A stretch of 64,000 nt of DNA from Bolinopsis microptera (Eukaryota > Ctenophora > Tentaculata > Lobata > Bolinopsidae). Position numbers and translations under genes: made by a program. Position 1 is the first letter of the stretch; each line of letters opens with the position of its first letter. The notes under the pieces were generated by a model. The model was not told where the DNA came from and searched no databases. It was given only the letters and a program-made list of their open reading frames with translations. This document shows, piece after piece, positions 255 through 61,357 of the stretch. The stretch is taken from NCBI RefSeq assembly GCF_026151205.1, contig NC_087073.1, positions 2,004,501 to 2,068,500 on the forward strand, in the 5' to 3' direction.

Positions 255-3200
255 ATGCTGCTAAACCCTCTACAACTGATACTAGCTGCGGTCCTGTTCG
301 CGTCCACCCATTCCATGTACAAATTTACGGACTTGTCCAAGATCAAGCATTTGTCAGATTTTAGCCGTGATTTTCTATCGAAACAGTAAATAAATTCAAA
401 GAATGATTCAATTAAATTCATTTGTTGATTAAATTTCCATGTTAAATCAAATAATGAGCTGTGGCGATTGAAGATTATCCAAACATAAAACTCTGTTGTC
501 TGAAGATTTCTGTGTTGCAAATTTCCAAGAATACGTCCAGTAATATTCGCTTTTGCTCAGCAAACCTTTTAACGACCTCAATTTCAGTTTCTGTTCGGAT
601 AACCAGCCCTACTGTTCTGGCGGAAAGATCTGCGTTCACAACGAGTGCAGAAGATACAGGACCAACATTGACTGCTCCACTTCCGGTTAGAAGAGAAGTC
701 TTTTTAGCTTCTTTACTTTCACTTTCACTTTCACTTTCACTAATCTTACTTTAAACGTATCTCTAAAGGTTGGCTATCCTTACATCTTTGCCTGGCCTAG
801 GTACATTCTACGGTGATCTACGGTGATCATCGATGAGACAAAATAATAGCGGTTGAATGACTCATTGACTCTGATTCACGTGACAATCTTTCTCTTGCAC
901 CTTGTTTATGTTAACCACCATGGTAATATTAAAAAGCTCCTGAATTGATCTATAAATCCTTTCAGTTGAATCATCGTGTTGATTCGTCAAACATTCAAGT
1001 TGCTAGAAGAATCTTTTAAACGAAACTTAACTTCCTTAATTCTTGTGAAGCTACAATCACGCTGACACTAGAAAGAACGCGTTGCACAAACAACCTTTTC
1101 TACGTCTTCAATACAAATATTTCAACCGGAAATAAGCAATGTTATCTCCAGGTGGGAAGTGTCCTCGTGGTTACTGCTGTATGAACCAAGGTTCCTCCTC
1201 GGCGGGCATCTGTGTCCGCAAGCTCAACTTCCGGCTCCGGATAGGCGACTACTGTAACAGACAGGCTACCTGCGATTACTGCCAGTGTCAACCCGGACTG
1301 GTCTGCGCCAAAAACGGCTTCCAGTTTTTCCCCGAAGCCGTCTACACTTGTCAGGAGAATGACACTGTAAGTGTGATTAGTTTTTATAAATGTTTTTAGA
1401 GTCTGTACTTTGCTTCTGTAAGTGTGATCAGTTTTTATAAATGTTTTTAGAGTCGCTATTGGTTATATCACCGAGCAGCTAGGGTCCAAAAGTTTCAAAC
1501 CATTTTTGTCATAATCAGTGTTTCTCACTTAATTGCTTGAACAAGAAAGTAAAATGGTTTGGTTTTTCGGGCGATTACCTGGCACGCTAGTCCCAATGCG
1601 CGGCGCTCTTTTCAAGAGGGGCATTAGACTAGTAAGCTAGGTAAGTCGGGCGACTCCTCTTTGGGTAATCACACTGTATCTCGACATACACCGTATCTCG
1701 AATGTCGATATAGAGGTGTCGAGATACGGTATATGTCGATATCCAGTGTGGGAATCTCATCTTTGCAATCGTTTATAACACGTTTACCCAGTTTACTGAA
1801 CAGGAGGGCGACTGCTCTGAAGACGAACAGTGTGCCAGTGATAGGTGTTGTTCCAGCTCAAAGTGCAAACCCAAGAAAAGTAAGGCTTTACTGCTAGTTA
1901 CCATAGTTACACTACTAGTTACCATAGTTACACTACTAGTTACCATAGTGACGAACAGTGTGCCAGTGATAGGTGTTGTTCCAGCTCAAAGTGCAAACCC
2001 AAGAAAAGTAAGGCTTTACTGCTAGTTACCATAGTTACACTACTAGTTACCATAGTTACACTACTAGTTAGATAGGTGTTGTTCCAGCTCAAAGTGCAAA
2101 CCCAAGAAAAGTAAGGCTTTACTGCTAGTTACCATAGTTACACTACTAGTTACCATAGTTACACTACTAGTTACCATAGTTACACACTGATAGGTGTTGT
2201 TCCAGCTCAAAGTGCAAACCCAAGAAAAGTAAGTTACCATAGTTACACTACTAGTTACCATAGTTACACACTGCTTTTCAAATCATTAAGGAAACTTTAA
2301 GCTCAAAGTGCAAACCCAAGAAAAGTTAGTTACCATAGTTACACTACTAGTTACCATAGTTACACACTGCTTTTCAAATCATTAAGGTTGATGTGATCGG
2401 TGTTGTTCCAGCTCAAAGTGCAAACCCAAGAAAAGTAAGGCTTTACTGCTAGTTACCATAGTTACACTACTAGTTACCATAGTTACACTACTAGTTATCA
2501 GTGTGCCAGTGATAGGTGTTGTTCCAGCTCAAAGTGCAAACCCAAGAAAAGTAAGGAGCATTCAAATCATTTAGGAAACATTAAAGCTCAAAGTGCAAAC
2601 CCAAGAAAAGTAAGGCTTTTCAAATCATTAAGGAAACAAAGTGCAAACCCAAGAAAAGTAAGGCTTTTCAAATCATTAAGTGCAAACCCAAGAAAAGTAA
2701 GGCTTTTCAAATCATTAAGGAAACAAAGTGCAAACCCAAGAAAAGTAAGGCTTTTCAAATCATTAAGGAAACAAAGTGCAAACCCAAGAAAAGTAAGGCT
2801 TTTCAAATCATTTAGGAAACAAGCTTATTGATTGATGGTCGCCGAAATTTCATTAGCCCTGACCGTGTAGCATTATAAGACCAGCCCTAGAATATTTGCC
2901 CTTAAAAAACCCCGAAGATTGTATTTAAACTGATCTAAGACTTCGTTTTTATATTATAACGTTTATTTTTAGGCAGATTCCAGTTAATTAAAATAACAAT
3001 CCATTAAAACTCTGGACAAAAATCTGACGCAAGAATCGATAGGCGGTCGAACTTACAAAGAATATTAATTATTAGGTCTAAACTAATGGAAGATCATTTT
3101 TGATAAAATGATCTTTTTTTCTATAACAGTATAACATTCGATGTGCGCTTTGATGCGAATCATTATTAAATATTCAGCACCGATTTTTCGTCGAAATCAA

Positions 3201-3957
3201 TTTCGTTTCACCATTGATAATAAATTATCAAAACTTGCACAAATTAAAAATTTGCTGACACTTATCAGCATTATTTTTGTCCAAATACTATTTTTCATCG
3301 GAAATTTGAAAGAGAATTCTGCGAATTCTGCCCAGACAGGAGAAATAAAGCAATATTGTTCGACCAAACATTATTCTTATTTCCAAAGAAAAATATGAGA
3401 CAATTTGAGACAATTTAAAGACAATTTAAAATTGAATTTTAACAAGTAGACAGGATAATGTGTCATCACACCAAAATAATTTGCCACACCTGTCCTAGCG
3501 ACCTTATCTTAGTTTACGCTAATATTTGTGCAAAGGCATGGTGCATAAAATTGGAGGAGACCGGTGGTTGAACTTGAAGGTGTCTTAACGCCGTCTGAAA
3601 ACATTTATCTATGGAATGTAATCGCCTTATTGGGCTGTAAAAGCTGCTTTCTTACATCTTATAAATATAACACGTATGGAATTATCGTTCATCACGTTAC
3701 ACGCATAAAATCTGAATACCCTTAAGTTTAAAGTGTATAGGTTTATCACTCCTCCTTACCTTACTCCTCCTTCCTCTCCAGGAGAAGGAGAAAGATGTTA
3801 TCCAAAGAACGGAAAGTTCTGGGAGGCGTATCTTGAGTGTAACGGAGACTGTGTGGACGGGACAGTCTGTACACGTGACGACACCCAGCCTTACTACGGT
3901 TTCTATATTTGCAGGACAGTAGGATCGGGCCCTGAGAAGCTCTGTCGTGGATCATGA
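255..3957 (+). CDS. dickkopf-like secreted cysteine-rich protein, five exons
   Basis: Five exons are read from the sequence: 255-385, 588-685, 1152-1366, 1792-1879 and 3782-3957. All have GT donors and AG acceptors, the phases match at every junction, and the total is 708 nt (235 residues plus stop). Residues 1-20 form a signal peptide with a hydrophobic LQLILAAVLFA core. Two cysteine-rich modules follow. The first, about residues 46-143, includes GYCC, GICV, GDYC and QPGLVC and ends in YTCQ. The second, about 154-221, has GDC, CASDRCC, KCKP, GERC and GTVC and ends in YICR. This spacing is that of the colipase-fold CRD of dickkopf and prokineticin proteins. Dickkopf proteins are extracellular Wnt modulators that bind LRP5/6; that role here is inferred from family likeness. 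The start at 255 is the only ATG giving a signal peptide. Another colipase-fold family, such as an astakine/prokineticin type, is the main alternative. Intron 4 carries amplified copies of the exon 4 end. Confidence 0.85.
1365..1452 (+). repeat. 51-bp tandem duplication of a 5' splice site
   Basis: The donor of intron 3 (GTAAGT at 1367) and the following 30-odd bases recur 51 bp downstream, with GTAAGT again at 1418. The shared block begins CTGTAAGTGTGAT and runs through TTTTTATAAATG to AGAGTC with one visible difference. The last codons of the exon are not fully included, so the second donor would add a short extension to the exon. Confidence 0.85.
1670..1750. other. long hairpin in intron 3 of the dickkopf-like gene
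   Basis: Two 32-bp arms, 1670-1701 and 1719-1750, are inverted copies with three mismatches around a 17-bp loop. The arm begins CACACTGTATCTCGACATAC. A smaller inverted pair (CTAGTCCCAATGC and GCATTAGACTAG) lies at about 1586-1633. The pair could be the core of a small MITE, but no target duplication was found. Confidence 0.8.
1947..2822 (+). repeat. exon 4 end plus 5' splice site, amplified about 11 times in intron 4
   Basis: After the true donor at 1880, the 3' end of exon 4 recurs with its donor: copies begin near 1950, 2070, 2188, 2300, 2394, 2500, 2585, 2635, 2678, 2725 and 2772. Each retains all or part of TGTTGTTCCAGCTC and then AAAGTGCAAACCCAAGAAAA followed by GTAAG (GTTAG in one copy). 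The copies shrink along the array: early ones carry about 60 bp of exon, late ones only about 20 bp, joined by CTTTTCAAATCATTAAGG. Early copies are separated by CTAGTTACCATAGTTACA blocks. Reading frames across the array are by-products of the repeat. Confidence 0.9.
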
Positions 3958-29030: not shown

Positions 29031-29606
29031 CCTTGTTTGTTGCTAATTATTCTTCAGCTAAGCGATATTGTCGACACCTGTGAAAATGGACACCCTGTTT
29101 GTTGCTAATTATTCTTCAGCTAAGCGATATTGTCGACACCTGTGAAAATGGACACCCTGTTTGTTGCTAATTATTCTTCAGCTAAGCGATATTGTCGACA
29201 CCTGTGAAAATGGACACCCTGTTTGTTGCTAATTATTCTTCAGCTAAGCGATATTGTCGACACCTGTGAAAATGGACACCCTGTTTGTTGCTAATTATTC
29301 TTCAGCTAAGCGATATTGTCGACACCTGTGAAAATGGACACCCTGTTTGTTGCTAATTATTCTTCAGCTAAGCGATATTGTCGACACCTGTGAAAATGGA
29401 CACCCTGTTTGTTGCTAATTATTCTTCAGCTAAGCGATATTGTCGACACCTGTGAAAATGGACACCCTGTTTGTTGCTAATTATTCTTCAGCTAAGCGAT
29501 ATTGTCGACACCTGTGAAAATGGACACCCTGTTTGTTGCTAATTATTCTTCAGCTAAGCGATATTGTCGACACCTGTGAAAATGGACACCCTGTTTGTTG
29601 CTAATT
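29031..29606 (+). repeat. 62-bp minisatellite, left part
   Basis: About nine almost identical 62-bp units, each with TGCTAATTATTCTTCAGCTA, AGCGATATTGTCGACACCTG and GAAAATGGACACCCTGTTTG. The array is interrupted by the element at 29607-31782 and continues beyond it. Confidence 0.97.
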
Positions 29607-31782: not shown

Positions 31783-31786
31783 AATT

Positions 31787-32272
31787 ATTCTTCAGCTAAG
31801 CGATATTGTCGACACCTGTGAAAATGGACACCCTGTTTGTTGCTAATTATTCTTCAGCTAAGCGATATTGTCGACACCTGTGAAAATGGACACCCTGTTT
31901 GTTGCTAATTATTCTTCAGCTAAGCGATATTGTCGACACCTGTGAAAATGGACACCCTGTTTGTTGCTAATTATTCTTCAGCTAAGCGATATTGTCGACA
32001 CCTGTGAAAATGGACACCCTGTTTGTTGCTAATTATTCTTCAGCTAAGCGATATTGTCGACACCTGTGAAAATGGACACCCTGTTTGTTGCTAATTATTC
32101 TTCAGCTAAGCGATATTAGCAACACCTGTGAAAATAGACACCCTGTTTGTTGCTAATTATTCTTCAGCTAAGCGATATTGTCAACACCTGTGAAAATAGT
32201 CACCCTGTTTGTTGCTAATTATTATTCAGCTAAGCGATATTGTCAACACCTGTGAAAATAGTCACATGATAA
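31787..32272 (+). repeat. 62-bp minisatellite, right part
   Basis: Seven to eight units continue the array after the element. The first five are almost identical to the left part; the last three carry shared changes (GTCAACACC, AAAATAGTCAC) and then the array ends, as expected for edge copies escaping homogenisation. Confidence 0.95.
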
Positions 32273-34221: not shown

Positions 34222-37200
34222 ATGCTCCCAGTGACGAAACAGAAAGTATTAGTGACAGGCGTGACTGGGTTTGTGGCATCTCACATTACGAAGCGACTCC
34301 TCAAAACCAGTTAGTTTTCCTAATAGCAGGGAGGGGGGGAGGGGTTGTACCTGCTACTAGAGTATTGTACCTCTCAGTTTCCTAGTAGCAGGGAGGGGTT
34401 GTAGAACTACTACTACTCTACTAGTTGCTACTAGATTATTTTACCTCTGCCTTTCAGACTTCAGTGGTGTTTTAGAGTTTGGAACTTTGCCATATTGCTA
34501 TTTTATTCGTATGTGTTATTTATGTTTTCACACATAAGCACATGTAATGTAACACAGTGAATTATCATTATATTATATTAGTGAAATACGCACGTTTTCC
34601 GGCAAGTATTTCAAGTCTGCAAACTGTAAGGCAGCCTATAAGAGCACAAACTTATTTACAGATAAATACATTGTGCACGGCACAGTTCGAAGTAGACACA
34701 ATCGAAAGAGAGTGAAGCCGGTTACAAAGTTCCACAATGCACTCGAGAACCTGAGGCTTTTTGAGTGTAACCTGCTCGACGACTTGAATTGGGACAGGTT
34801 TTTATCTGCAATTTATTTTCATTTCATACGAACTGCACTGTGAGTTTACCCTGTCTTTTAATTATGCAAATACGCGATAAAAAGTCACGCCAATAAACCC
34901 CCACAGGGCTGTGAATGACTGTACCTATGTTATCACGCCAATAAACCCCCACAGGGCTGTGAGTGACTGTACCTATGTTATCCACGTGGCATCTCCGTTC
35001 CCAGACTCCCAGCCCGGAGAACCCTCCTCAGTAGTGGTACCAGCAGTCGAGGGGACTAAGAGAGTTCTGGACGCTTGCAAAAGAGCGGGAACTGTTAAGA
35101 GGGTTGTTCTTACCAGTAGCATTGCTGCAATATCAGGTATGTGTTCAAGCTGGTGGTCAATTGATCGATTAATTGATAATAATGTAGCATAGTTTAGTTG
35201 TCTCTTTATTTTACCCTCTTTCTTCATTCCCTGTATGTATAGCATTTGTGTGTTATCCGTATACACATTGAGGAGGAAAGTGAACTTGTAATCTTATACA
35301 TTTGCAGGAGGAAAGCAGCGAGGGGATTATCATTACACAGAGAGAGAGTGGAGTTGTTATCTTATATATTTTCCAGGAGGAAAGCAGCGAGGAGATTATC
35401 ATTACACAGAGGGAGAGTGGAGTTTGTAAACTGATATATTTTCCAGGAGGAAAGCAGCGAGGGGATTATCATTACACAGAGGGAGAGTGGAGTTGTAATC
35501 TTATATATTTTCCAGGAGGAAAGCAGCGAGGGGATTATCATTACACAGAGGGAGAGTGGAGTTTGTAAACTGATATATTTTCCAGGAGGAAAGCAGCGAG
35601 GGGATTATCATTACACAGAGGGAGAGTGGAGTTGTAATCTTATATATTTTCCAGGAGGAAAGCAGCGAGGGGATTATCATTACACAGAGGGAGAGTGGAG
35701 TTTGTTATCTTATATATTTTCCAGGAGGAAAGCAGCGAGGGGATTATCATTACACAGAGGGAGAGTGGAGTTTGTTATCTTATATATTTTCCAGGAGGAA
35801 AGCAGCGAGGGGATTATCATTACACAGAGGGAGAGTGGAGTTGTAATCTTATATATTTTCCAGGAGGAAAGCAGCGAGGGGATTATCATTACACAGAGGG
35901 AGAGTGGAGTTGTAATCTTATATATTTTCCAGGAGGAAAGCAGCGAGGGGATTATCATTACACAGAGAGAGAGTGGAGTTGTAATCTTATATATTTTCCA
36001 GGAGGAAAGCAGCGAGGGGATTATCATTACACAGAGAGAGAGTGGAGTTGTAATCTTATATATTTTCCAGGAGGAAAGCAGCGAGGGGATTATCATTACA
36101 CAGAGAGAGAGAGTGGAGTTTGTTATCTTATATATTTTCCAGGAGGAAAGCAGCGAGGGGATTATCATTACACAGAGGGAGAGTAGAGTTGTAATCTTAT
36201 ATATTTTCCAGGAGGAAAGCAGCGAGGGGATTATCATTACACAGAGAGAGAGAGAGTGGAGTTTGTTATCTTATATATTTTCCAGGAGGAAAGCAGCGAG
36301 GGGATTATCATTACACAGAGAGAGAGTGGAGTTGTAATCTTATATATATTTCCAGGAGGAAAGCAGCGAGGGGATTATCATTACACAGAGGGAGAGTGGA
36401 GTTGTAATCTTATATATTTGCAGGAGGAAAGCAGCGAGGGGATTATCATTACACAGAGGGAGAGTGGAGTTGTAATCTTATATATTTTCCAGGAGGAAAG
36501 CAGCGAGGGGATTATCATTACACAGAGGGAGAGTGGAGTTTGTAATCTTATATATTTTCCAGGAGGAAAGCAGCGAGGGGATTATCATTACACAGAGGGA
36601 GAGTGGAGTTGTAATCTTATATATTTTCCAGGAGGAAAGCAGCGAGGGGATTATCATTACACAGAGGGAGAGTGGAGTTGTAATCTTATATATTTTCCAG
36701 GAGGAAAGCAGCGAGGGGATTATCATTACACAGAGAGAGAGTGGAGTTGTAATCTTATATATTTTCCAGGAGGAAAGCAGCGAGGGGATTATCATTACAC
36801 AGAGAGAGAGTGGAGTTGTAATCTTATATATTTTCCAGGAGGAAAGCAGCGAGGGGATTATCATTACACAGAGGGAGAGTGGAGTTGTAATCTTATATAT
36901 TTTCCAGGAGGAAAGCAGCGATGGGGATTATCATTACAGAGAGGAAGAGTGGAGTTGTAATCTTATATATTTGCAGGAGGAAAGCAGCGAGGGGATTATC
37001 ATTACACTGAGGGAGAGTGGCGTTGTAATCTTATATATTTTCCAGGAGGAAAGCAGCGAGGGGATTATCATTACACAGAGAGAGAGTGGAGTTGTAATCT
37101 TATATATTTTCCAGGAGGAAAGCAGCGAGGGGATTATCATTACACAGAGAGAGAGTGGAGTTGTAATCTTATATATTTTCCAGGAGGAAAGCAGCGAGGG

Positions 37201-40200
37201 GATTATCATTACACAGAGGGAGAGTGGAGTTTGTAATCTTATATATTTTCCAGGAGGAAAGCAGCGATGGGGATTATCATTACACAGAGAGAGAGTGGAG
37301 TTGTAATCTTATATATTTGCAGGAGGAAAGCAGCGAGGGGATTATCATTACAGAGAGGAAGAGTGGAGTTGTAATCTTATATATTTGCAGGAGGAAAGCA
37401 GCGAGGGGATTATCATTACAGAGAGGAAGAGTGGAGTTGTAATCTTATATATTTGCAGGAGGAAAGCAGCGAGGGGATTATCATTACACTGAGGGAGAGT
37501 GGCGTTGTAATCTTATATATTTTCCAGGAGGAAAGCAGCGAGGGGATTATCATTACAGAGAGAGAGAGAGTGGAGTTGTAATCTTATACATTTGCAGGAG
37601 GAAAGCAGCGAGGGGATTATCATTACACAGAGGGAGAGTGGAGTTTGTAATCTTATATATTTTCCAGGAGGAAAGCAGCGAGGGGATTATCATTACACAG
37701 AGAGAGAGTGGCGTTGTAATCTTATATATTTCCAGGAGGAAAGCAGCGAGGGGATTATCATTACACAGAGGGAGAGTGGAGTTGTAATCTTATATATTTG
37801 CAGGAGGAAAGCAGCGAGGGGATTATCATTACACTGAGGGAGAGTGGAGTTGTAATCTTATATATTTGCAGGAGGAAAGCAGCGAGGGGATTATCATTAC
37901 ACAGAGAGAGAGTGGAGTTTGTAATCTTATATATTTTCCAGGAGGAAAGCAGCGAGGGGATTATCATTACACAGAGGGAGAGTGGAGTTTGTAATCTTAT
38001 ATATTTTCCAGGAGGAAAGCAGCGAGGGGATTATCATTACACAGAGGGAGAGTGGAGTTTGTTATCTTATATATTTTCCAGGAGGAAACCAGCGGGGATT
38101 ATCATTACACAGAGGGAGAGTGGAGTTGTAATCTTATATATTTTCCAGGAGGAAAGCAGCGAGGGGATTATCATTACACAGAAGGAGAGTGGAGTTTGCA
38201 GGGAGATTGTGACCCTTATTGTCTGAGCAAAGTCCTCGCAGAGAAAGCTGCATGGGATATGGCTGCCACGGGTTGGTCTATCTTACAGTCTCTTACTCTT
38301 AGTCTTACTATTACCTACTCTCTGTAAGGTATTTAATATTTATGCCCAGTATGGCAACTAAAAACACTTGTCCAAGTTCCGTCTGATACATTGTCAGAAT
38401 CATTGGACTTTCAGTATGTTAGTGCTTAAGTGTGATCACAATATATAATCTTTACATTTCCTCAGCGAACTTTGAGTTGGTAGCACTAAATCCTACAATG
38501 TGTCTCGGTCCTATCCTTGTCGGGGAATGTACCTCTATGCTGGTGAGTAAATATTCTATAGTGTGCGGTGAGTGTTATTACCACGTGATGCCCTTATAAG
38601 GGGTGTTTGTTTATTTTAAGAATTTCCTCATCTTGTCCTCTCAATATTCTCCACTTATATTATTTTATTTATAACATATAGCGCCGAATGTTGAGGTCTT
38701 TGTCTAATGTCGGAGTTTATTCAAGCAATCTAATAAACATTAAACAATAAACATGCATTATAAACATGCATTATCGTCACAGTATCACAACTTCTCACTG
38801 CTCAGCTAGTAAAGCGGATATTAATAACTAATTAATTAATTAACTAATTAACTAATTAACTAATTAATTAATTAATTAATTAATTAATTAATTAATTAAC
38901 TAATAAATAATAAACATGCATTATCGCCACAATATCACAACTTCACATTGCTCAGCTTGTAAAGCGGATATTGGAGGGCGGCTACCCCATGCTCCCTAAG
39001 ATATTCCTGCCCACTGTTGATGTAAGAGATGTGGCGGATGCTCATATTTCCGCTATGCTAGCTCCGGAAGCTGCTGGGAAACGAATCATAATTCAGTGAG
39101 TTAATCTTAACGTATTCCGTGTTATGAGTAAATGTTATTGTTAACGTATTCCGACAATTCATCAACATGATTGAAAGTCGGTGATAAATTTAATTTTTCC
39201 GGCTACAATTATCTCTGTTCAGAGAGTGCAGCGAGTAACCGAGTTTATGACCTTTTGTTTGACTATGAACCTATAATAATTGGATGGTGTTTCAGTTCCA
39301 CCAACTTTTGGCTGAAGGACATTGCCCAAACGATACACGACGTGTTCACGGACCAAGGTTACAAGATCTCAGTTCGGGATATGCCAGATTGGGCTTTAAG
39401 TATCGCCGCTAAAATCAACAAATCTGCCAAGTTTGTATCCAGCAGCATCGGGAAGATCATCACTTACGACACCAACAACGTAAGTCTTTAATATAACGTC
39501 TGGAGGATATTGCTGAGTTGAGGATTTGCTGAGTTGGCAATAAATAATGACAATGTGTTCTAATCCACGATTTAAATATTATAACTGATATCATGATATA
39601 AATTGTAAAATAAACCCCCATCGAGCTAGACATACATGACACACCAGTCACTAATCGAGACATACATGACACACTAGTCACTAATCGCCATGTTGCACGT
39701 ATTTAAAAAGGGTGAACTTGTAGCACTATATTACGTAGGTGTTTCAAATTACTAAATACAACACAAGATACAAGGGCAGGTCTCTCCCGAACGTTGGGAT
39801 GGCCTGAGGTGCTTATCTCCTTTTCAGTAACCCTAAGCCACTCTGTGCCGAGGCACTATACTAGCTGTAGGGGGGTTAGTCCTACGAGCCAGAGAGTGTG
39901 TATCACCAGCCGAAGCTGTACCAAATCACAGCTTGGTAACTGGCCGACTTGCATCCGACCGGATTTGAACCCGGGTCTTCTGCTTGGGAGGCGATCGTGT
40001 TACCACTACACCACCCGGCCGACAGATTACTAAATTACTAAATGCCTGAACGAAATCGATATCTCAGCATAGCAGCGTTTGTGAGTGCAATTGTTTAAAT
40101 AATACCACTTAAAAGATACTCCACTTTTTCAGATGAACCAGATTCTCGGAATCGAAGGGAGGGATGTGCGAGCAGCAGTTATTGACATGTGCTACAGTAT

Positions 40201-40300
40201 GATTGAACTCAAATTAGCCTCCACCAAGGGCAAATACGTGCCCAACGTCAGCTACTTGGACGACACTGAGCTGTCATTCGACAACGTCTTTCAGTTTTAA
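34222..40300 (+). CDS. NADP-type extended SDR, dihydroflavonol/cinnamoyl reductase-like, eight exons
   Basis: Exons: 34222-34309, 34662-34797, 34955-35136, 38149-38271, 38466-38542, 38956-39095, 39296-39479 and 40133-40300. All introns are GT-AG, phases agree throughout, and the total is 1098 nt (365 residues). The N-terminal TGVTGFVA (12-19) is the glycine motif of the Rossmann fold; VHGTVRS supplies the Arg typical of NADP binding. YVIHVASPFP, VVLTSSIAAIS (with the catalytic Ser), YCLSK (Tyr159, Lys163), NPTMCLGP and DVRDVADAH are family blocks in the expected order. Length is near the family norm of about 330-350. These enzymes reduce carbonyls of phenylpropanoid, flavonoid or other aldehyde/ketone substrates in the cytosol; the animal substrate is unknown. 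Introns are 0.16-0.65 kb except intron 3 (3.0 kb), swollen by a tandem array of its own acceptor. An ATTAAA near 40494 may be the polyadenylation signal. Confidence 0.95.
34885..34980 (+). repeat. 48-bp tandem duplication of the exon 3 acceptor
   Basis: Two copies of a 48-bp block, TCACGCCAATAAACCCCCAC then AGGGCTGTGA.TGACTGTACC, place acceptors at 34906 and 34954. Forty-eight is a multiple of three and the first copy is open, so use of the upstream acceptor would insert 16 residues (AVNDCTYVITPINPHR) in frame. The downstream acceptor matches the family (AVSDCTYVIHVASPF). Confidence 0.9.
35269..38148 (+). repeat. about 41 tandem copies of the exon 4 acceptor region
   Basis: A 69-71-bp unit fills intron 3. 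Each unit holds the intron end (TAATCTTATATATTTTCCAG or a TTTGCAG variant) followed by the first 45-48 bases of exon 4 (GAGGAAAGCAGCGAGGGGAT and on to GGAGAGTGGAG). The final copy is the genuine one: at 38149 it continues past GGAGTTTG into the rest of exon 4, which encodes the YCLSK active site. Each unit therefore carries an acceptor and, in 69-bp units, an open frame that repeats GGKQRGDYHYTEGEWS joined by CNLIYFP. Longer 70-bp units change the frame. A partial, divergent unit at 35269-35307 marks the left edge. Confidence 0.95.
38580..38606 (-). repeat. inverted copy of the 40.37-kb CACGTG repeat
   Basis: CCACGTGATGCCCTTATAAG here is the reverse complement of a block found twice at 40369-40432. 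The arms bracket exons 6-8. Confidence 0.75.
38750..38972 (+). repeat. duplicated exon 6 acceptor with AATT array between
   Basis: The true acceptor (38955) with TATCACAACTTC, TTGCTCAG and the first exon bases CTTGTAAAGCGGATATT is preceded about 150 bp upstream by a copy with its own CTCAG at about 38805 and CTAGTAAAGCGGATATT. An AATT/AACT tetranucleotide run at about 38827-38899 separates them. Confidence 0.85.
39758..40025 (-). mobile_element. tRNA-derived SINE in intron 7 of the SDR gene
   Basis: On the minus strand the head starts GGCCGGGTGGTGTAGTGGTA (A box TGGTGTAGTGG) with B box GGTTCAAATCC, resembling tRNA-Gly(CCC) but with mismatched anticodon, T and acceptor stems, so it is not a working tRNA. 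About 190 bp of unrelated body follows, ending in a CTTGTATCTTGTGTTGT tail. A 10-bp target duplication ATTACTAAAT flanks it (39748-39757 and 40026-40035). SINEs are transcribed by RNA polymerase III and moved by LINE proteins. It lies antisense to the host gene and does not touch exons. Confidence 0.88.
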
Positions 40301-43683: not shown

Positions 43684-45482
43684 ATGGAGGAGCTAAAATA
43701 TCTAAAGATTAAAGATGAGATGAAAATGGAGGAAGATAGGATACCACCAGAATTTATAAATACAGATACCAAGGAGGAGGAAGATAATCTTTATGCCAAA
43801 TCAGAAGTGTATGATCGTACTTGTCAAATGCAGTTTCCCAACCAAGATTTATTTACGAAACATCCTCAACACTATACTTTAATTATGGCTGGAGACATGA
43901 ATACAGGCAAAATCTCCATAGAGTGCATCAACAAACCTAATTCAAAACTCCACCAAACTTCTGCCCCTGATACCGAATGGATTAAAGAACCTCGAGAACG
44001 ATTGATGTACTCTGAAACTTCCTGCGACACAACCACAATATCCACTTTACCAGTTTACCTACCACTACTAGTAAAGAGAGTTATATCAGAAAGAAACCAT
44101 ATCAATGCTCTGAATGCCACTACAGTACAGCACATAAATCACACTTAGTTCCCCATCAGCGAACTCATACCGGAGAAAAGCCTTATAAATGTTCTGAATG
44201 CTTCTACAGAACACGTTATAAATCCAACTTAGTTTGCCATCAGAGGAATCATTCCGGAGAAACTCCTTACAAATGTTCTGAATGCTCCTACAGTACACGC
44301 CAAAAACAAAACTTAGTTCGCCATCAGTGGACTCATTCCGAAGAAAAACCTTATAAATGTTCCGAATGCTCATATAGTACAACCCAAAAATCTATCTTAG
44401 TTCGCCATAAGCAGTATCAAACCAAAGACAAACCTTATAAATGTCCTGAATGTTCCTACAGTGCTAGTCAAAGATCAAACTTGGTTACCCATCAGCGGAC
44501 TCATTCCGAGCGATTATTTTCACGAAGTATACAAAGCAAAGATTTTCCAAAAATATGCCAAACTTCTGTCGCTGAAACAGAGTGGATGAGAGTTACCCCA
44601 GATTTGTCTACAGTTTTAAACAGCACAAGCACAAAATCTCCTCTACCATCTGTTCAGCGGACTGATAAGATTAAGAACCATGTATGCATTCCAACACAAA
44701 TGGGCAGCAATGGGCCTATTTTCGTGAAGCCTCTACCTTTCGTGAAGCCTCTAACATTTGTCAAGCCTCTAACAGTAACATTTGTCAAGCCTCTAACGTT
44801 TGTCAAGCCTCTGTTCGTAGCTGAGCCCCTCCACTCCAGTTCCAGTCCTTCTTCCGGACATCTACCAGTGTTATCTCACACGACACAGTCAACAGCTCCT
44901 GATCCGACCTTCTCACCTGGTGATCCTGTCTTCATACCTTCTTCCAGTGCATCATCTACCTACTCTACTCCGACCTTCTCACCTGGTGATCCTGTCTTCA
45001 TACCTTCTTCCAGTGCATCATCTACCTACTCTACTCCGACCTTCTCACCTGGTGATTCTGTCTTCATACCTTCTTCCAGTGCATCATCTACCTACTCTAC
45101 TCCGACCTTCTCACCTGGTGATTCTGTCCTCATACCTTCTTCCAGTGCATCATCTACCTACTCTACTCCGACCTTCTCACCTGGTGATTCTGTCTTCATA
45201 CCTTCTTCCAGTGCATCATCTACCTACTCTACTCCGACCTTCTCACCTGGTGATTCTGTCTTCATACCTTCTTCCAGTGCATCATCTACCTACTCTACTC
45301 CGACCTTCTCACCTGGTGATCCTGTCTTCATACCTTCTTCCAGTGCATCATCTACCTACTCTACTCCGACCTTCTCACTTGGTGATCCTGTCTTCATACC
45401 TTCTTCCAGTGCATCATCTACCTACTCTACTCCGACCTTCTCACCTGGTGATCCTGTCTTCATACCTTCTTCCAGTGCATAA
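43684..45482 (+). CDS. C2H2 zinc-finger protein with 22-residue repeat tail; frame change between N-terminus and fingers
   Basis: The ATG follows an acceptor (AAATTTTCAG, 43679). An N-terminal frame (43684-44148) encodes an acidic leader (MEELKYLKIKDEMKMEED...). The fingers lie in another frame, open from 44016 to the TAA at 45480, so a one-base indel, sequencing error or tiny intron is needed in the 130-bp overlap. Five fingers follow at about 44100-44510 (C-x2-C-x12-H-x3-H, linkers TGEKPYKC, SGETPYKC, SEEKPYKC). Finger 4 ends HKQYQ, lacking its last His. A QTSxxxTEW motif occurs before and after the fingers. Then come FVKPLT repeats (44720-44815) and about nine copies of a 22-residue Ser/Thr/Pro/Tyr-rich unit (TFSPGDPVFIPSSSASSTYS). 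The fingers suggest a nuclear DNA-binding protein; the tail could be an activation or low-complexity domain. DNA target unknown. Confidence 0.65.
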
Positions 45483-48400
45483 TCTACCTACTCTACTCCG
45501 ACCTTCTCACCTGGTGATCCTGTCTTCATACCTTCTTCCAGTGCATCATCTTCCTACTCTACTCCGACCTTCTCACTTGGTGATCCTGTCTTCATACCTT
45601 CTTCCAGTGCATCATCTACCTACTCTACTCCGACCTTCTCACCTGGTGATCCTGTCTTCATACCTTCTTCCAGTGCATCATCTACCTACTCTACTCCGAC
45701 CTTCTCACTTGGTGATCCTGTCTTCACACCTTCTTCCAGTGCATCATCTACCTACTCTACTCCGACCTTCTCACTTGGTGATCCTGTCTTCATACCTTCT
45801 TCCAGTGCATCATCTACCTACTCTACTCCGACCTTCTCACCTGGTGATCCTGTCTTCATACCTTCTTCCAGTGCATCATCTACCTACTCTACTCCGACCT
45901 TCTCACTTGGTGATCCTGTCTTCATACCTTCTTCCAGTGCATCATCTACCTACTCTACTCCGACCTACTCACTTGGTGATCCTGTCTTCATACCTTCTTC
46001 CAGTGCATCATCTGACATCTACCTACTCTACTCCGACCTTCTCACTTGGTGATCCTGTCTTCATACCTTCTTCCAGTGCATCATCTACCTACTCTACTCC
46101 GACCTTCTCACTTGGTGATCCTGTCTTCATACCTTCTTCCAGTGCATCATCTACCTACTCTACTCCGACCTTCTCACCTGGTGATTCTGTCTTCATACCT
46201 TCTTCCAGTGCATCATCTACCTACTCTACTCCGACCTTCTCACCTGGTGATTCTGTCCTCATACCTTCTTCCAGTGCATCATCTACCTACTCTACTCCGA
46301 CCTTCTCACCTGGTGATTCTGTCTTCATACCTTCTTCCAGTGCATCATCTACCTACTCTACTCCGACCTTCTCACCTGGTGATTCTGTCTTCATACCTTC
46401 TTCCAGTGCATCATCTACCTACTCTACTCCGACCTTCTCACCTGGTGATCCTGTCTTCATACCTTCTTCCAGTGCATCATCTACCTACTCTACTCCGACC
46501 TTCTCACTTGGTGATCCTGTCTTCATACCTTCTTCCAGTGCATCATCTACCTACTCTACTCCGACCTTCTCACCTGGTGATCCTGTCTTCAACCTTCTTC
46601 CAGTGCATAATCTACCTACTCTACTCCGACCTTCTCACCTGGTGATCCTGTCTTCATACCTTCTTCCAGTGCATCATCTTCCTACTCTACTCCGACCTTC
46701 TCACTTGGTGATCCTGTCTTCATACCTTCTTCCAGTGCATCATCTACCTACTCTACTCCGACCTTCTCACCTGGTGATCCTGTCTTCATACCTTCTTCCA
46801 GTGCATCATCTACCTACTCTACTCCGACCTTCTCACTTGGTGATCCTGTCTTCACACCTTCTTCCAGTGCATCATCTACCTACTCTACTCCGACCTTCTC
46901 ACTTGGTGATCCTGTCTTCATACCTTCTTCCAGTGCATCATCTACCTACTCTACTCCGACCTTCTCACCTGGTGATCCTGTCTTCATACCTTCTTCCAGT
47001 GCATCATCTACCTACTCTACTCCGACCTTCTCACTTGGTGATCCTGTCTTCATACCTTCTTCCAGTGCATCATCTACCTACTCTACTCCGACCTACTCAC
47101 TTGGTGATCCTGTCTTCATACCTTCTTCCAGTGCATCATCTACCTACTCTACTCCGACCTTCTCACTTGGTGATCCTGTCTTCATACCTTCTTCCAGTGC
47201 ATCATCTACCTACTCTACTCCGACCTTCTCACTTGGTGATCCTGTCTTCATACCTTCTTCCAGTGCATCATCTACCTACTCTACTCCGACCTTCTCACCT
47301 GGTGATCCTGTCTTCATACCTTCTTCCAGTGCATCATCTTCCTACTCTACTCCGACCTTCTCACCTGGTGATTCTGTCTTCATACCTTCTTCCAGTGCAT
47401 CATCTACCTACTCTACTCCGACCTTCTCACCTGGTGATTCTGTCTTCATACCTTCTTCCAGTGCATCATCTACCTACTCTACTCCGACCTTCTCACCTGG
47501 TGATCCTGTCTTCATACCTTCTTCCAGTGCATCATCTACCTACTCTACTCCGACCTTCTCACTTGGTGATCCTGTCTTCATAGCTTCTTCCAGTGCATCA
47601 TCTACCTACTCTACTCCGACCTTCTCACCTGGTGATCCTGTCTTCATACCTTCTTCCAGTGCATCATCTACCTACTCTACTCCGACCTTCTCACTTGGTG
47701 ATCCTGTCTTCATACCTTCTTCCAGTGCATCATCTACCTACTCTACTCCGACCTTCTCACCTGGTGATCCTGTCTTCATACCTTCTTCCAGTGCATCATC
47801 TTCCTACTCTACTCCGACCTTCTCACCTGGTGATTCTGTCTTCATACCTTCTTCCAGTGCATCATCTACCTACTCTACTCCGACCTTCTCACCTGGTGAT
47901 TCTGTCTTCATACCTTCTTCCAGTGCATCATCTACCTACTCTACTCCGACCTTCTCACCTGGTGATCCTGTCTTCATACCTTCTTCCAGTGCATCATCTA
48001 CCTACTCTACTCCGACCTTCTCACCTGGTGATCCTGTCTTCATAGCCTTCTTCCAGTGCATCATCTACCTACTCTACTCCGACCTTCTCACCTGGTGATC
48101 CTGTCTTCATACCTTCTTCCAGTGCATCATCTACCTACTCTACTCCGACCTTCTCACTTGGTGATCCTGTCTTCATACCTTCTTCCAGTGCATCATCTAC
48201 CTACTCTACTCCGACCTTCTCACCTGGTGATCCTGTCTTCATACCTTCTTCCAGTGCATCATCTACCTACTCTACTCCGACCTTCTCACCTGGTGATCCT
48301 GTCTTCATACCTTCTTCCAGTGCATCATCTACCTACTCTACTCCGACCTTCTCACCTGGTGATCCTGTCTTCATACCTTCTTCCAGTGCATCATCTACCT

Positions 48401-51280
48401 ACTCTACTCCGACCTTCTCACCTGGTGATCCTGTCTTCATACCTTCTTCCAGTGCATCATCTACCTACTCTACTCCGACCTTCTCACTTGGTGATCCTGT
48501 CTTCATACCTTCTTCCAGTGCATCATCTACCTACTCTACTCCGACCTTCTCACTTGGTGATCCTGTCTTCATACCTTCTTCCAGTGCATCATCTACCTAC
48601 TCTACTCCGACCTTCTCACTTGGTGATCCTGTCTTCATACCTTCTTCCAGTGCATCATCTACCTACTCTACTCCGACCTTCTCACTTGGTGATCCTGTCT
48701 TCATACCTTCTTCCAGTGCATCATCTACCTACTCTACTCCGACCTTCTCACCTGGTGATCCTGTCTTCATACCTTCTTCCAGTGCATCATCTACCTACTC
48801 TACTCCGACCTTCTCACCTGGTGATCCTGTCTTCATACCTTCTTCCAGTGCATCATCTACCTACTCTACTCCGACCTTCTCACTGGTGATTCCTGTCTTC
48901 ATACCTTCTTCCAGTGCATCATCTACCTACTCTACTCCGACCTTCTCACCTGGTGATCTGTCTTCATACCTTCTTCCAGTGCATCATCTACCTACTCTAC
49001 TCCGACCTTCTCACTGGTGATCCTGTCTTCATACCTTCTTCCAGTGCATCATCTACCTACTCTACTCCGACCTTCTCACCTGGTGATCCTGTCTTCATAC
49101 CTTCTTCCAGTGCATCATCTACCTACTCTACTCCGACCTTCTCACTTGGTGATCCTGTCTTCATACCTTCTTCCAGTGCATCATCTACCTACTCTACTCC
49201 GACCTTCTCACCTGGTGATTCCTGTCTTCATACCTTCTTCCAGTGCATCATCTACCTACTCTACTCCGACCTTCTCACTGGTGATCCTGTCTTCATACCT
49301 TCTTCCAGTGCATCATCTACCTACTCTACTCCGACCTTCTCACCTGGTGATCTGTCTTCATACCTTCTTCCAGTGCATCATCTACCTACTCTACTCCGAC
49401 CTTCTCACCTGGTGATTCCTGTCTTCATACCTTCTTCCAGTGCATCATCTACCTACTCTACTCCGACCTTCTCACCTGGTGATCCTGTCTTCATACCTTC
49501 TTCCAGTGCATCATCTACCTACTCTACTCCGACCTTCTCACCTTGGTGATCCTGTCTTCATACCTTCTTCCAGTGCATCATCTACCTACTCTACTCCGAC
49601 CTTCTCACCTGGTGATCCTGTCTTCATACCTTCTTCCAGTGCATCATCTACCTACTCTACTCCGACCTTCTCACCTGGTGATCCTGTCTTCATACCTTCT
49701 TCCAGTGCATCATCTACCTACTCTACTCCGACCTTCTCACCTGGTGATCCTGTCTTCATACCTTCTTCCAGTGCATCATCTACCTACTCTACTCCGACCT
49801 TCTCACTTGGTGATCCTGTCTTCATACCTTCTTCCAGTGCATCATCTACCTACTCTACTCCGACCTACTCACTTGGTGATCCTGTCTTCATACCTTCTTC
49901 CAGTGCATCATCTACCTACTCTACTCCGACCTTCTCACTTGGTGATCCTGTCTTCATACCTTCTTCCAGTGCATCATCTACCTACTCTACTCCGACCTTC
50001 TCACTTGGTGATCCTGTCTTCATACCTTCTTCCAGTGCATCATCTACCTACTCTACTCCGACCTTCTCACCTGGTGATTCTGTCTTCATACCTTCTTCCA
50101 GTGCATCATCTACCTACTCTACTCCGACCTTCTCACCTGGTGATTCTGTCCTCATACCTTCTTCCAGTGCATCATCTACCTACTCTACTCCGACCTTCTC
50201 ACCTGGCGATTCTGTCTTCATACCTTCTTCCAGTGCATCATCTACCTACTCTACTCCGACCTTCTCACCTGGTGATTCTGTCTTCATACCTTCTTCCAGT
50301 GCATCATCTACCTACTCTACTCCGACCTTCTCACCTGGTGATCCTGTCTTCATACCTTCTTCCAGTGCATCATCTACCTACTCTACTCCGACCTTCTCAC
50401 TTGGTGATCCTGTCTTCATACCTTCTTCCAGTGCATCATCTACCTACTCTACTCCGACCTTCTCACCTGGTGATCCTGTCTTCATACCTTCTTCCAGTGC
50501 ATAATCTACCTACTCTACTCCGACCTTCTCACCTGGTGATCCTGTCTTCATACCTTCTTCCAGTGCATCATCTTCCTACTCTACTCCGACCTTCTCACTT
50601 GGTGATCCTGTCTTCATACCTTCTTCCAGTGCATCATCTACCTACTCTACTCCGACCTTCTCACCTGGTGATCCTGTCTTCATACCTTCTTCCAGTGCAT
50701 CATCTACCTACTCTACTCCGACCTTCTCACTTGGTGATCCTGTCTTCACACCTTCTTCCAGTGCATCATCTACCTACTCTACTCCGACCTTCTCACTTGG
50801 TGATCCTGTCTTCATACCTTCTTCCAGTGCATCATCTACCTACTCTACTCCGACCTTCTCACCTGGTGATCCTGTCTTCATACCTTCTTCCAGTGCATCA
50901 TCTACCTACTCTACTCCGACCTTCTCACTTGGTGATCCTGTCTTCATACCTTCTTCCAGTGCATCATCTACCTACTCTACTCCGACCTACTCACTTGGTG
51001 ATCCTGTCTTCATACCTTCTTCCAGTGCATCATCTACCTACTCTACTCCGACCTTCTCACTTGGTGATCCTGTCTTCATACCTTCTTCCAGTGCATCATC
51101 TACCTACTCTACTCCGACCTTCTCACTTGGTGATCCTGTCTTCATACCTTCTTCCAGTGCATCATCTACCTACTCTACTCCGACCTTCTCACTTGGTGAT
51201 CCTGTCTTCATACCTTCTTCCAGTGCATCATCTACCTACTCTACTCCGACCTTCTCACCTGGTGATCCTGTCTTCATACC
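44899..51280 (+). repeat. 66-bp coding-type satellite array, left part (about 97 units)
   Basis: Unit of 66 bp containing CCGACCTTCTCACCTGGTGA, TCCTGTCTTCATACCTTCTT and CCAGTGCATCATCTACCTAC. It starts inside the zinc-finger frame. Marker variants (GCATAATCT, TCTTCACACC, CGACCTACTC) recur in the same order at 45481/45722/45963, 46609/46852/47090 and 50503/50748/50986, showing a higher-order repeat of 17 units (1122 bp) plus kb-scale duplications. A 7-bp insertion at about 46013 and single-base length changes, dense at 48880-49550, alter the frame repeatedly, so most of the array is not one protein. Two of the three plus-strand frames are open in the basic unit, which creates long but meaningless frames. 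Confidence 0.97.
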
Positions 51281-52477
51281 TGTAAGAACCTCGGCCCCCT
51301 ATTCTTTTTGTCGCTCAGTTAATAACTGAGCACTGGGAGTTGACACTTACACTTCATACCTAGTTCATACCGTGATGGACCGGACGGGACATCTCTAGGA
51401 GCGAATGAAGGCTCATTAAGAGTTGCAGTGATAAGGCTTCCATCAAACTGTGGAGCGCGCCAATCACCGTGGCAACCGTACGAATAGCAACCAATCACGG
51501 AGCCCCCGAACCGGTGTCCTGACGGCGAAATCTCATATTTCAGTGCACCGGGACAGGACGAGATAAACCGAGCTGATACGACCAATTAATTATCGGACCT
51601 CTGAGTTTAAACGGTAAATTAACAGAACCTGGGAGACTATCCGAGATGACGACCTGGACTTCTCCCCACTTCTACTCAGTTCCATTATTCCAACTTCGAG
51701 TTGGTCACTCGGCCTCCGATCGTTCCGACACTGAACCTCTGGATCTCTTCACTTCTACTCTGTTCCTGCCCTTATCCCTAAGATGACGCCCTGATTCTGC
51801 CTCCGTGCGACTGAAGATGATCAGACTCATCTCCGGCCAACGATCAGACTCATCTCCGGACTTGTTGAGGAAAGTCGACTCTTTAAGCTGCGGTGGCGAT
51901 ATGCAGATTAGAGAACCAACTCTTCAACTGTCCACCCCTCCTACTCATCCTAAGGTCGGTTAGCTCGGTCGATACTATATTTTATTGTACTATACTATGA
52001 TACTTGATACTACTTACCTTGATGACCAGATGTTCTGCTGGTCTTTTCATATACTGTCATTAATCGCTTACATTACAACTGCTAAAACTGCTATATTGCA
52101 AGTCTCTGAGACTATGATTGAAAGTTGAGTCGTTACAATTACTAAAAGTGTGCAGTGCCACAAGTAAATTTGAGTTCTTGACACAGAAAGCCGTATTTAA
52201 TCACAAGCCTAACTCGTACAGTTTCAGGAGGATACAAGTTCTTGGCGAATTAGAGTAACACCATACTGGTGGAGACTATCGATCCCGAAGACCCTCAAGC
52301 TAGTCATCATTAGAGCGCTCTAGCTACTAGTAGTTAGACCGCAAGTTATTAAGACTTGTAGTCAGTACTATATACCAGGCGTAGTTAGATCCTATACTGG
52401 TTCTTATAGGATGGAGCCCTATAAATTGCGTAGACCTAGTGACTAGTTAGTAGTTACTCCCACGGGAGGTTCCTACA
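51281..52477 (+). repeat. left LTR, 1197 bp
   Basis: Direct copy of 58666-59862, starting TG and ending CA with 10-bp inverted ends. No difference was noticed in a visual comparison. A TATATTTTATTG stretch (about 51975) could be promoter-like. Confidence 0.93.
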
Positions 52478-58665: not shown

Positions 58666-59862
58666 TGTAAGAACCTCGGCCCCCTATTCTTTTTGTCGCT
58701 CAGTTAATAACTGAGCACTGGGAGTTGACACTTACACTTCATACCTAGTTCATACCGTGATGGACCGGACGGGACATCTCTAGGAGCGAATGAAGGCTCA
58801 TTAAGAGTTGCAGTGATAAGGCTTCCATCAAACTGTGGAGCGCGCCAATCACCGTGGCAACCGTACGAATAGCAACCAATCACGGAGCCCCCGAACCGGT
58901 GTCCTGACGGCGAAATCTCATATTTCAGTGCACCGGGACAGGACGAGATAAACCGAGCTGATACGACCAATTAATTATCGGACCTCTGAGTTTAAACGGT
59001 AAATTAACAGAACCTGGGAGACTATCCGAGATGACGACCTGGACTTCTCCCCACTTCTACTCAGTTCCATTATTCCAACTTCGAGTTGGTCACTCGGCCT
59101 CCGATCGTTCCGACACTGAACCTCTGGATCTCTTCACTTCTACTCTGTTCCTGCCCTTATCCCTAAGATGACGCCCTGATTCTGCCTCCGTGCGACTGAA
59201 GATGATCAGACTCATCTCCGGCCAACGATCAGACTCATCTCCGGACTTGTTGAGGAAAGTCGACTCTTTAAGCTGCGGTGGCGATATGCAGATTAGAGAA
59301 CCAACTCTTCAACTGTCCACCCCTCCTACTCATCCTAAGGTCGGTTAGCTCGGTCGATACTATATTTTATTGTACTATACTATGATACTTGATACTACTT
59401 ACCTTGATGACCAGATGTTCTGCTGGTCTTTTCATATACTGTCATTAATCGCTTACATTACAACTGCTAAAACTGCTATATTGCAAGTCTCTGAGACTAT
59501 GATTGAAAGTTGAGTCGTTACAATTACTAAAAGTGTGCAGTGCCACAAGTAAATTTGAGTTCTTGACACAGAAAGCCGTATTTAATCACAAGCCTAACTC
59601 GTACAGTTTCAGGAGGATACAAGTTCTTGGCGAATTAGAGTAACACCATACTGGTGGAGACTATCGATCCCGAAGACCCTCAAGCTAGTCATCATTAGAG
59701 CGCTCTAGCTACTAGTAGTTAGACCGCAAGTTATTAAGACTTGTAGTCAGTACTATATACCAGGCGTAGTTAGATCCTATACTGGTTCTTATAGGATGGA
59801 GCCCTATAAATTGCGTAGACCTAGTGACTAGTTAGTAGTTACTCCCACGGGAGGTTCCTACA
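58666..59862 (+). repeat. right LTR, 1197 bp
   Basis: Direct copy of the left LTR, followed by the ATACC target duplication and then the resumed 66-bp array. Confidence 0.93.
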
Positions 59863-61350
59863 ATACCTTCTTCCAGTGCATCATCTTCCTACTCTACTCC
59901 GACCTTCTCACCTGGTGATTCTGTCTTCATACCTTCTTCCAGTGCATCATCTACCTACTCTACTCCGACCTTCTCACCTGGTGATTCTGTCTTCATACCT
60001 TCTTCCAGTGCATCATCTACCTACTCTACTCCGACCTTCTCACCTGGTGATCCTGTCTTCATACCTTCTTCCAGTGCATCATCTACCTACTCTACTCCGA
60101 CCTTCTCACTTGGTGATCCTGTCTTCATAGCTTCTTCCAGTGCATCATCTACCTACTCTACTCCGACCTTCTCACCTGGTGATCCTGTCTTCATACCTTC
60201 TTCCAGTGCATCATCTACCTACCTTCTCTACTCCGACCTTCTCACCTGGTGATTCTGTCTTCATACCTTCTTCCAGTGCATCATCTACCTACTCTACTCC
60301 GACCTTCTGACCTGGTGATCCTGTCTTCATACCTTCTTCCAGTGCATCATCTACCTACTCTACTCCGACCTTCTCACTTGGTGATCCTGTCTTCATACCT
60401 TCTTCCAGTGCATCATCTACCTACTCTACTCCGACCTTCTCACTTGGTGATCCTGTCTTCATACCTTCTTCCAGTGCATCATCTACCTACTCTACTCCGA
60501 CCTTCTCACTTGGTGATCCTGTCTTCATACCTTCTTCCAGTGCATCATCTACCTACTCTACTCCGACCTTCTCACCTGGTGATTCTGTCTTCATACCTTC
60601 TTCCAGTGCATCATCTACCTACTCTACTCCGACCTTCTCACCTGGTGATCCTGTCTTCATACCTTCTTCCAGTGCATCATCTACCTACTCTACTCCGACC
60701 TTCTCACTTGGTGATCCTGTCTTCATACCTTCTTCCAGTGCATCATCTACCTACTCTACTCCGACCTTCTCACCTGGTGATTCTGTCTTCACACCTTCTT
60801 CCAGTGCATAATCTACCTACTCTACTCCGACCTTCTCACCTGGTGATCCTGTCTTCATACCTTCTTCCAGTGCATCATCTACCTACTCTACTCCGACCTT
60901 CTCACCTGGTGATTCTGTCTTCATACCTTCTTCCAGTGCATCATCTACCTACTCTACTCCGACCTTCTCACCTGGTGATCCTGTCTTCATACCTTCTTCC
61001 AGTGCATCATCTTCCTACTCTACTCCGACCTTCTCACCTGGTGATTCTGTCTTCATACCTTCTTCCAGTGCATCATCTACCTACTCTACTCCGACCTTCT
61101 CACCTGGTGATTCTGTCTTCATACCTTCTTCCAGTGCATCATCTACCTACTCTACTCCGACCTTCTCACCTGGTGATCCTGTCTTCATACCTTCTTCCAG
61201 TGCATCATCTACCTACTCTACTCCGACCTTCTCACTTGGTGATTCTGTCTTCACACCTTCTTCCAGTGCATAATCTACCTACTCTACTCCGACCTTCTCA
61301 CCTGGTGATCCTGTCTTCATACCTTCTTCCAGTGCATCATCTACCTACTC
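59863..61350 (+). repeat. 66-bp coding-type satellite array, right part (about 22 units)
   Basis: The array resumes at the exact position of the unit where the LTR element broke it (CATACC, then TTCTTCCAG). It ends at 61350 with ACCTACTCTAAATAA, giving a stop (61355-61357) directly after the last unit in the Tyr-Ser-Thr frame. AATAAA at 61464 could be the polyadenylation signal of the original zinc-finger transcript (inference). Confidence 0.95.
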
Positions 61351-61357
61351 TAAATAA

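Follow-up and report, generated by a model that had tools for sequence, protein, structure and literature searches.

In a 64,000-nucleotide stretch of the genome of the ctenophore Bolinopsis microptera (assembly GCF_026151205.1, contig NC_087073.1, positions 2,004,501 to 2,068,500 of the forward strand; hereafter the window, whose own numbering is used throughout), the third intron of a short-chain dehydrogenase (SDR) gene consists almost entirely of tandem copies of its own 3′ splice junction. The array is probably a large 3′ mirage, a kind of intron/exon-boundary repeat described in lancelets, in which only the last acceptor would be spliced and the copies upstream of it would stay intronic.

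The SDR gene and its third intron

The gene model, built on the reading frame and GT/AG splice sites, comprises the following features.

34222-40300, plus strand: SDR gene, 8 exons, intact, 365 aa
34222-34309, 34662-34797, 34955-35136 and 38149-38271, plus strand: exons 1-4
38466-38542, 38956-39095, 39296-39479 and 40133-40300, plus strand: exons 5-8
35137-38148, plus strand: intron 3, 3012 nt, nearly its whole length made up of the array, from the gene model and the anchors described below
38149-38271, plus strand: exon 4, 123 nt, with the sole full-frame acceptor among the 43 anchors tested and a donor at 38272 of 8.7 bits
35308-38148, plus strand: 41 intact tandem copies of 67-74 bp, each unit consisting of the exon 4 start (GAGGAAAG...GTGGAG) and the intron 3 end (TTGTAATCTTATATATTTTCCAG)
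35273-35307, plus strand: degenerate partial copy of 35 bp, identified by its anchor and preceded by GAG instead of CAG

By its sequence, the product is an extended short-chain dehydrogenase near dihydroflavonol-4-reductase (DFR) and cinnamoyl-CoA reductase (CCR). A 177-aa model of exons 1-4 matches the Pfam family Epimerase (PF01370, E 6.7e-21), and the protein matches the dihydroflavonol-4-reductase of PDB entry 4qtz (E 1.4e-39), so that both marks of the extended SDRs, the Epimerase-family Rossmann domain and the DFR/CCR homology, are present. With the last acceptors in use, the alignment to 4qtz crosses the exon 2/3 joint free of gaps and shows a gap of one residue where exons 3 and 4 meet. 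Searched against the 264.65-Mb genome, the SDR protein has 18 matches, all of them at this gene.

Anatomy of the array

Tandem Repeats Finder (TRF) places the array at 35275-38196, with a period of 69, 42.2 copies, 95% matches and a score of 5189. With GAGGAAA[GC], the start of exon 4, taken as the anchor, 43 anchors are found, namely the degenerate left-edge copy, 41 intact upstream copies and the true exon 4 start at 38149; the junction string CAG/GAGGAAA[GC] (the slash marks the splice junction) occurs 42 times on the plus strand of the window. We read the 35-bp element at the left edge as a decayed copy of the array. Among the 41 intact units, 69 bp is the commonest length (20 units), followed by 70 bp (12) and 68 bp (six), with one unit each of 67, 72 and 74 bp; the length is a multiple of three in 21 units and not in the other 20. 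The exon 4 part of the unit is 46 bp long in 35 of the 41 and 44-50 bp in the others, the intron-end part is 22-24 bp, and the real exon 4 start is one edit off the array consensus. The initial annotation, which had counted about 41 copies of the intron's own 3′ splice site between a donor at 35137 and an exon 4 at 38149-38271, is borne out on all these points by the anchors and the splice model; its account of the unit as a tandem stretch of junction also stands, and the 69-71 bp it gave for the whole unit was too narrow a range.

The mean identity of the units is 94%, and among the 41 units there are 21 sequence types arranged in irregular order, which argues against a copy number produced by the assembly, with few real copies inflated or collapsed. 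Tandem arrays are difficult to assemble, and an aberrantly assembled mirage is mentioned for the amphioxus draft in the excerpted text of PMC3087553; however, PacBio continuous long read (CLR), HiFi or Iso-Seq libraries are given in excerpts of PMC10232365 for the animal set of that paper, and the junction array itself would still stand under such an artefact, which we regard as very unlikely. Scarcely credible is the idea that a dispersed satellite or transposable element lies in the intron by chance and mimics the exon. Further tandem arrays do occur in the window, but the unit here is the gene's own exon start, and a DNA search of the genome with 672 bases (array end and exon 4) placed all seven matches inside the intron 3 array, within the limits of a search that skipped very common words and scored the best candidates alone.

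Edits are denser in the intronic part of the 41 units (41 in 947 nt) than in the exonic part (39 in 1894 nt; Fisher p 0.001). These edits are shared by descent, and no conclusion on selection on the copies is drawn from the excess. The retention of the AG in every intact copy is, by our estimate, not clearly above chance at this divergence.

Splice-site strength and reading frames

Splice sites were scored with matrices built on other genes of the same genome (28 acceptors and 21 donors). The intact upstream acceptors of the array score 8.5-14.8 bits, the last acceptor 14.3 bits, and the reference acceptors have a median of 8.1 bits. All 41 upstream copies exceed the 10th percentile of the 28 reference acceptors (4.1 bits), and 24 of them score as high as the last acceptor or higher, a level reached by none of the 3087 other AGs on the plus strand of the window. 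Among the 123 GTs of the array, none attains the 10th percentile of donors (5.1 bits), and the best, at 2.2 bits, lies slightly under the lowest score in the set of 21 reference donors (2.3 bits, leave-one-out). Recursive splicing at the array copies was ruled out by eye, as their junction reads CAG/GAGG rather than AG/GT.

When read through to 38271, none of the 42 upstream anchors (the 41 intact copies and the degenerate one) keeps the frame, and all run into a premature or shifted stop, because 20 of the 41 units are not a multiple of three in length and the TTTGTAA units carry an in-phase TAA. That frames are not kept across the copies is as expected for untranslated DNA. The acceptor at 38149 is the only one among the 43 anchors that keeps the frame, and it yields the intact 365-aa SDR. 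These results agree with the earlier proposals that the copies offer acceptors and that the last copy alone joins the coding exon, and, as far as read-through goes, they leave no support for the suggestion that transcripts would gain multiples of about 23 residues.

A productive use of the upstream copies, adding in-frame residues either by read-through or through 45-nt mini-exons that end in GGA/GTTTGT, would predict cDNA with repeated GKQRGDYHYTEGEW segments. The mini-exon is in phase by our reading, and GGA/GTTTGT occurs 12 times in the array (in seven GTTTGTA units and five GTTTGTT units); nevertheless, the closed read-through frames and the low scores of the internal donors make this arrangement highly improbable. 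It is also unlikely that the array acts as an attenuator or a source of splicing noise, with upstream acceptors often used, products mostly bearing premature stops, and array length tuning the amount of functional enzyme. The 24 copies that equal or surpass the real acceptor, together with the stops met from all 42 upstream anchors, speak for such a role, but acceptors without a nearby donor would make exons roughly 190 to 2964 nt long, and amphioxus mirages are reported, in the excerpted texts, to leave splicing undisturbed (PMC3087553, PMC3902484). We give similarly little credence to an active array in general, in which 42 near-identical acceptors would compete and array length would set the share of productive mRNA, or rare internal donors would insert mini-exons of 15 residues. 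If true, the locus would serve as a natural titration both of the choice among splice sites and of the override of first-AG scanning by exon definition.

Proposed origin and splicing of the array

Under the 3′ mirage reading that we favor, a stretch of about 70 bp across the intron 3/exon 4 junction would have been duplicated in tandem, and unequal exchange or slippage would have expanded it to about 41 extra copies, all of them intronic. Exon definition, in which an acceptor pairs with the donor that follows it at the far end of a short exon, would select the last acceptor here, because 38149 alone has a good donor (38272) within exon distance, 123 nt on, and the 41 upstream copies, being acceptors without good donors, would be left in the intron. 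The spliceosome would then link the donor at 35137 to the acceptor at 38149, and a mis-choice of acceptor would lead to a premature stop and probably to decay of the mRNA. Two smaller duplications of the SDR gene, listed below, fit the same rule, in that a protein aligning with its homologues is obtained from the last acceptor in each.

Behind this reading stand the array itself, the gene model, the frames, the homology and the splice-site scores; several considerations weigh against it. If scanning for the first AG began at a branch point ahead of the array, 35308 (9.4 bits), the first good acceptor, would win. Choice of the last site therefore requires exon definition, yet the remaining introns of the gene, at 157-653 nt, are short and could be intron-defined. 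In addition, we placed the reference sites ourselves, a procedure that favors consensus-like sites, and the 10th-percentile cut is no test of use, given that the SDR gene itself has two of its seven donors (4.0 and 4.6 bits) and one of its seven acceptors (2.7 bits) under that value.

Comparison with known junction repeats

Junction repeats were known before, on a smaller scale, in lancelets. In excerpts of two papers, amphioxus mirages are described in Adh3, the globin genes BflGb6 and BflGb9, troponin C and PGBD5 (PMC3087553, PMC3902484); the first of these sets 3′ forms apart from 5′ forms, refers to Adh3 and gives reverse-transcription PCR results as suggesting regular splicing, and the second adds the PGBD5 and troponin C cases. 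Like the SDR array, these mirages are tandem, minisatellite-like copies of an intron/exon boundary, many of which carry AG/GT signals. Judged by its sequence, the SDR array has three of five mirage features, which are all of the testable mechanistic ones: head-to-tail repeats of minisatellite size (67-74-bp units), a unit with both an exonic and an intronic part (46 bp of exon 4 and 22-24 bp of intron end), and splice signals in the copies, present in many, not all, copies in the globin case and in 41 of 41 intact copies here. In our model, normal SDR mRNA would still be made, by the argument from frame and homology. Mirages are further marked by lengths that are unstable between haplotypes or in the soma; the array length given here comes from a single assembly. 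The amphioxus mirages are cephalochordate, a taxonomic rather than a mechanistic trait that the ctenophore array does not share. The scale also differs, since BflGb6 has 6 and 3 units of 150-160 bp in two haplotypes, according to the excerpts, compared with about 41 extra copies over 2.9 kb here; the units of the Adh3 mirage measure 10-72 bp. The intron 3 array would thus count as a large mirage outside the phylum of the lancelets, in Ctenophora. Searches of open literature brought up no description of ctenophore junction arrays, and wider ones on junction arrays led to the two lancelet papers and to the human study cited below.

Two other systems are related in part. Internal tandem repeats in human segmental-duplication genes are likewise minisatellites, some located at exon-intron boundaries, and alter gene structure; however, in the excerpted account their units average 30 bp in four copies and those at boundaries form new introns or alternative transcripts (PMC2812944), whereas the SDR product is unchanged according to our model. 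Intron gain through duplication of an AG/GT proto-splice site (Rogers 1989, as cited in an excerpt of PMC3087553) shares with the array a tandem duplication with splice signals within a gene, but in the SDR gene no new intron arises, the unit has no donor of good strength, and the intron already present has become longer.

The array extends junction arrays from lancelets to ctenophores, and it represents a natural test of how the spliceosome settles on one of some 40 near-identical 3′ splice sites, with donor, true acceptor and decoys all belonging to a single intron. The array further suggests that splicing can act as a buffer when a duplication extends into coding sequence, since whatever precedes the last copy is turned into intron.

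Other junction duplications in the window

Three further junctions of the window are duplicated, two in the SDR gene and one in a Cys-rich gene.

34885-34980, plus strand: 48-bp x 2 tandem duplication across the intron 2/exon 3 acceptor junction, with acceptors at 34907 and 34955
38757-38822 and 38907-38972, plus strand: 66-bp duplication (91%, 150 bp apart) across the intron 5/exon 6 acceptor junction, with a decoy acceptor at 38806 and the real one at 38956
1822-2822: donor-side junction array of the Cys-rich gene, with 11 junctions reading CCAAGAAAA/GTAAG and one with GTTAG, the first GT at 1880

Use of the upstream intron 2 acceptor at 34907 would add 16 residues in frame, and use of the upstream intron 5 acceptor at 38806 leads, by our reading of the sequence, to a stop. 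An ATTA-rich run lies between the two copies of the intron 5/exon 6 junction. Within intron 7 of the same gene, the segment 39780-40022, read by eye, resembles a tRNA-derived short interspersed element with its tRNA-like end on the minus strand.

The Cys-rich gene spans approximately 601-3954, with four exons read and no Pfam match. Its frame stays open when the first donor of the array, 1880, is spliced to the exon at 3782. At 1367-1460 of the window, the donor of the preceding exon of this gene (1367) has, about 50 bp downstream, another copy of the start of its intron (GTAAGTGTGAT.AG), which reaches 0.70 in the strict test and is not counted.

Junction duplications elsewhere in the genome

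A junction was scored as duplicated when a 30-bp window centered on it recurred at 83% identity or more at a distance of 20-500 bp. By this measure, 3 of the 14 junctions of the SDR gene are duplicated, all three being acceptors, as is 1 of the 6 junctions of the Cys-rich gene. None was found among 43 junctions of 24 kinase loci or among 26 junctions of two CCT chaperonin genes, and 0 of 69 outside the window sets a 95% upper limit of 4.2%; a genome-wide enrichment of junction duplications is therefore unsupported. In total, 4 of 89 junctions are duplicated, 20 of the 89 lying in the window and 69 outside it. Duplicates of this kind cover 4.1% of the window once five arrays are set aside, 3.5% of 30 homeobox loci, 2.3% of the 24 kinase loci, and 0% and 34% of the two CCT loci. 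On the window background, the chance of 3 duplicated acceptors among the 7 of the SDR gene is 0.002, and that of 2 among 6, with the intron 3 array left out, is 0.023. Compared with 1 of 75 other junctions, the 3 of 14 give a Fisher p of 0.012, for a gene that was chosen for one of its three duplications.

The kinase sample started from 40 loci out of 136 matches listed, chosen for hits that end inside the domain, of which 24 were used. Those left out had no clear intron (L075, L076, L080, L083, L084, L088 and L091-L097), had unclear boundaries (L059 and L090), or, in the case of L068, were a near-copy of another locus. Two kinase and two CCT junctions were dropped when their strings found no match, as was one CCT acceptor that was too unclear; one CCT locus contains a masked stretch and was kept as is. 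The homeobox loci yielded no junctions, because most hits lie within one long open frame. Of 111 homeodomain matches 30 were translated, and none of these was recognized by eye as Hox.

Some repeats at these loci come close to a junction. The kinase donor GGGGATTAG/GTGAGTGTAAT of L072 (reverse strand, near 890) appears again 39 bp downstream after a run of G, at a borderline 0.77 that is below the threshold. An intronic minisatellite of 61 copies of 30 bp in a CCT chaperonin gene (L101:3149-4976) ends about 20 nt short of the 3′ splice site, and those of two kinase loci (L070, reverse strand, in the intron after the kinase exon; L060, near 1003) start a few bases past the donor and are without exon sequence. 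All three lie near junctions, and none spans one.

Further repeats in the window

The segments 29034-29606 and 31783-32259 form one 62-bp array, whose unit contains TGCTAATTATTCTTCAG, interrupted by approximately 2.2 kb. The interruption has inverted-repeat ends (GGACACGTTCATTTGAGTTTGAGGATATTGGTAAA with its complement), which gives it the look of a mobile element inserted into the array. Arrays of a 66-bp unit reading PTFSPGDPVFIPSSSASSTYST occupy 44903-51281 and 59863-61352, with 96.6 and 22.5 copies by TRF, and lie downstream of a C2H2 zinc-finger open reading frame, with frames broken in places. A segmental duplication is likely, because 51625-51954 and 59010-59339 yield identical peptides.

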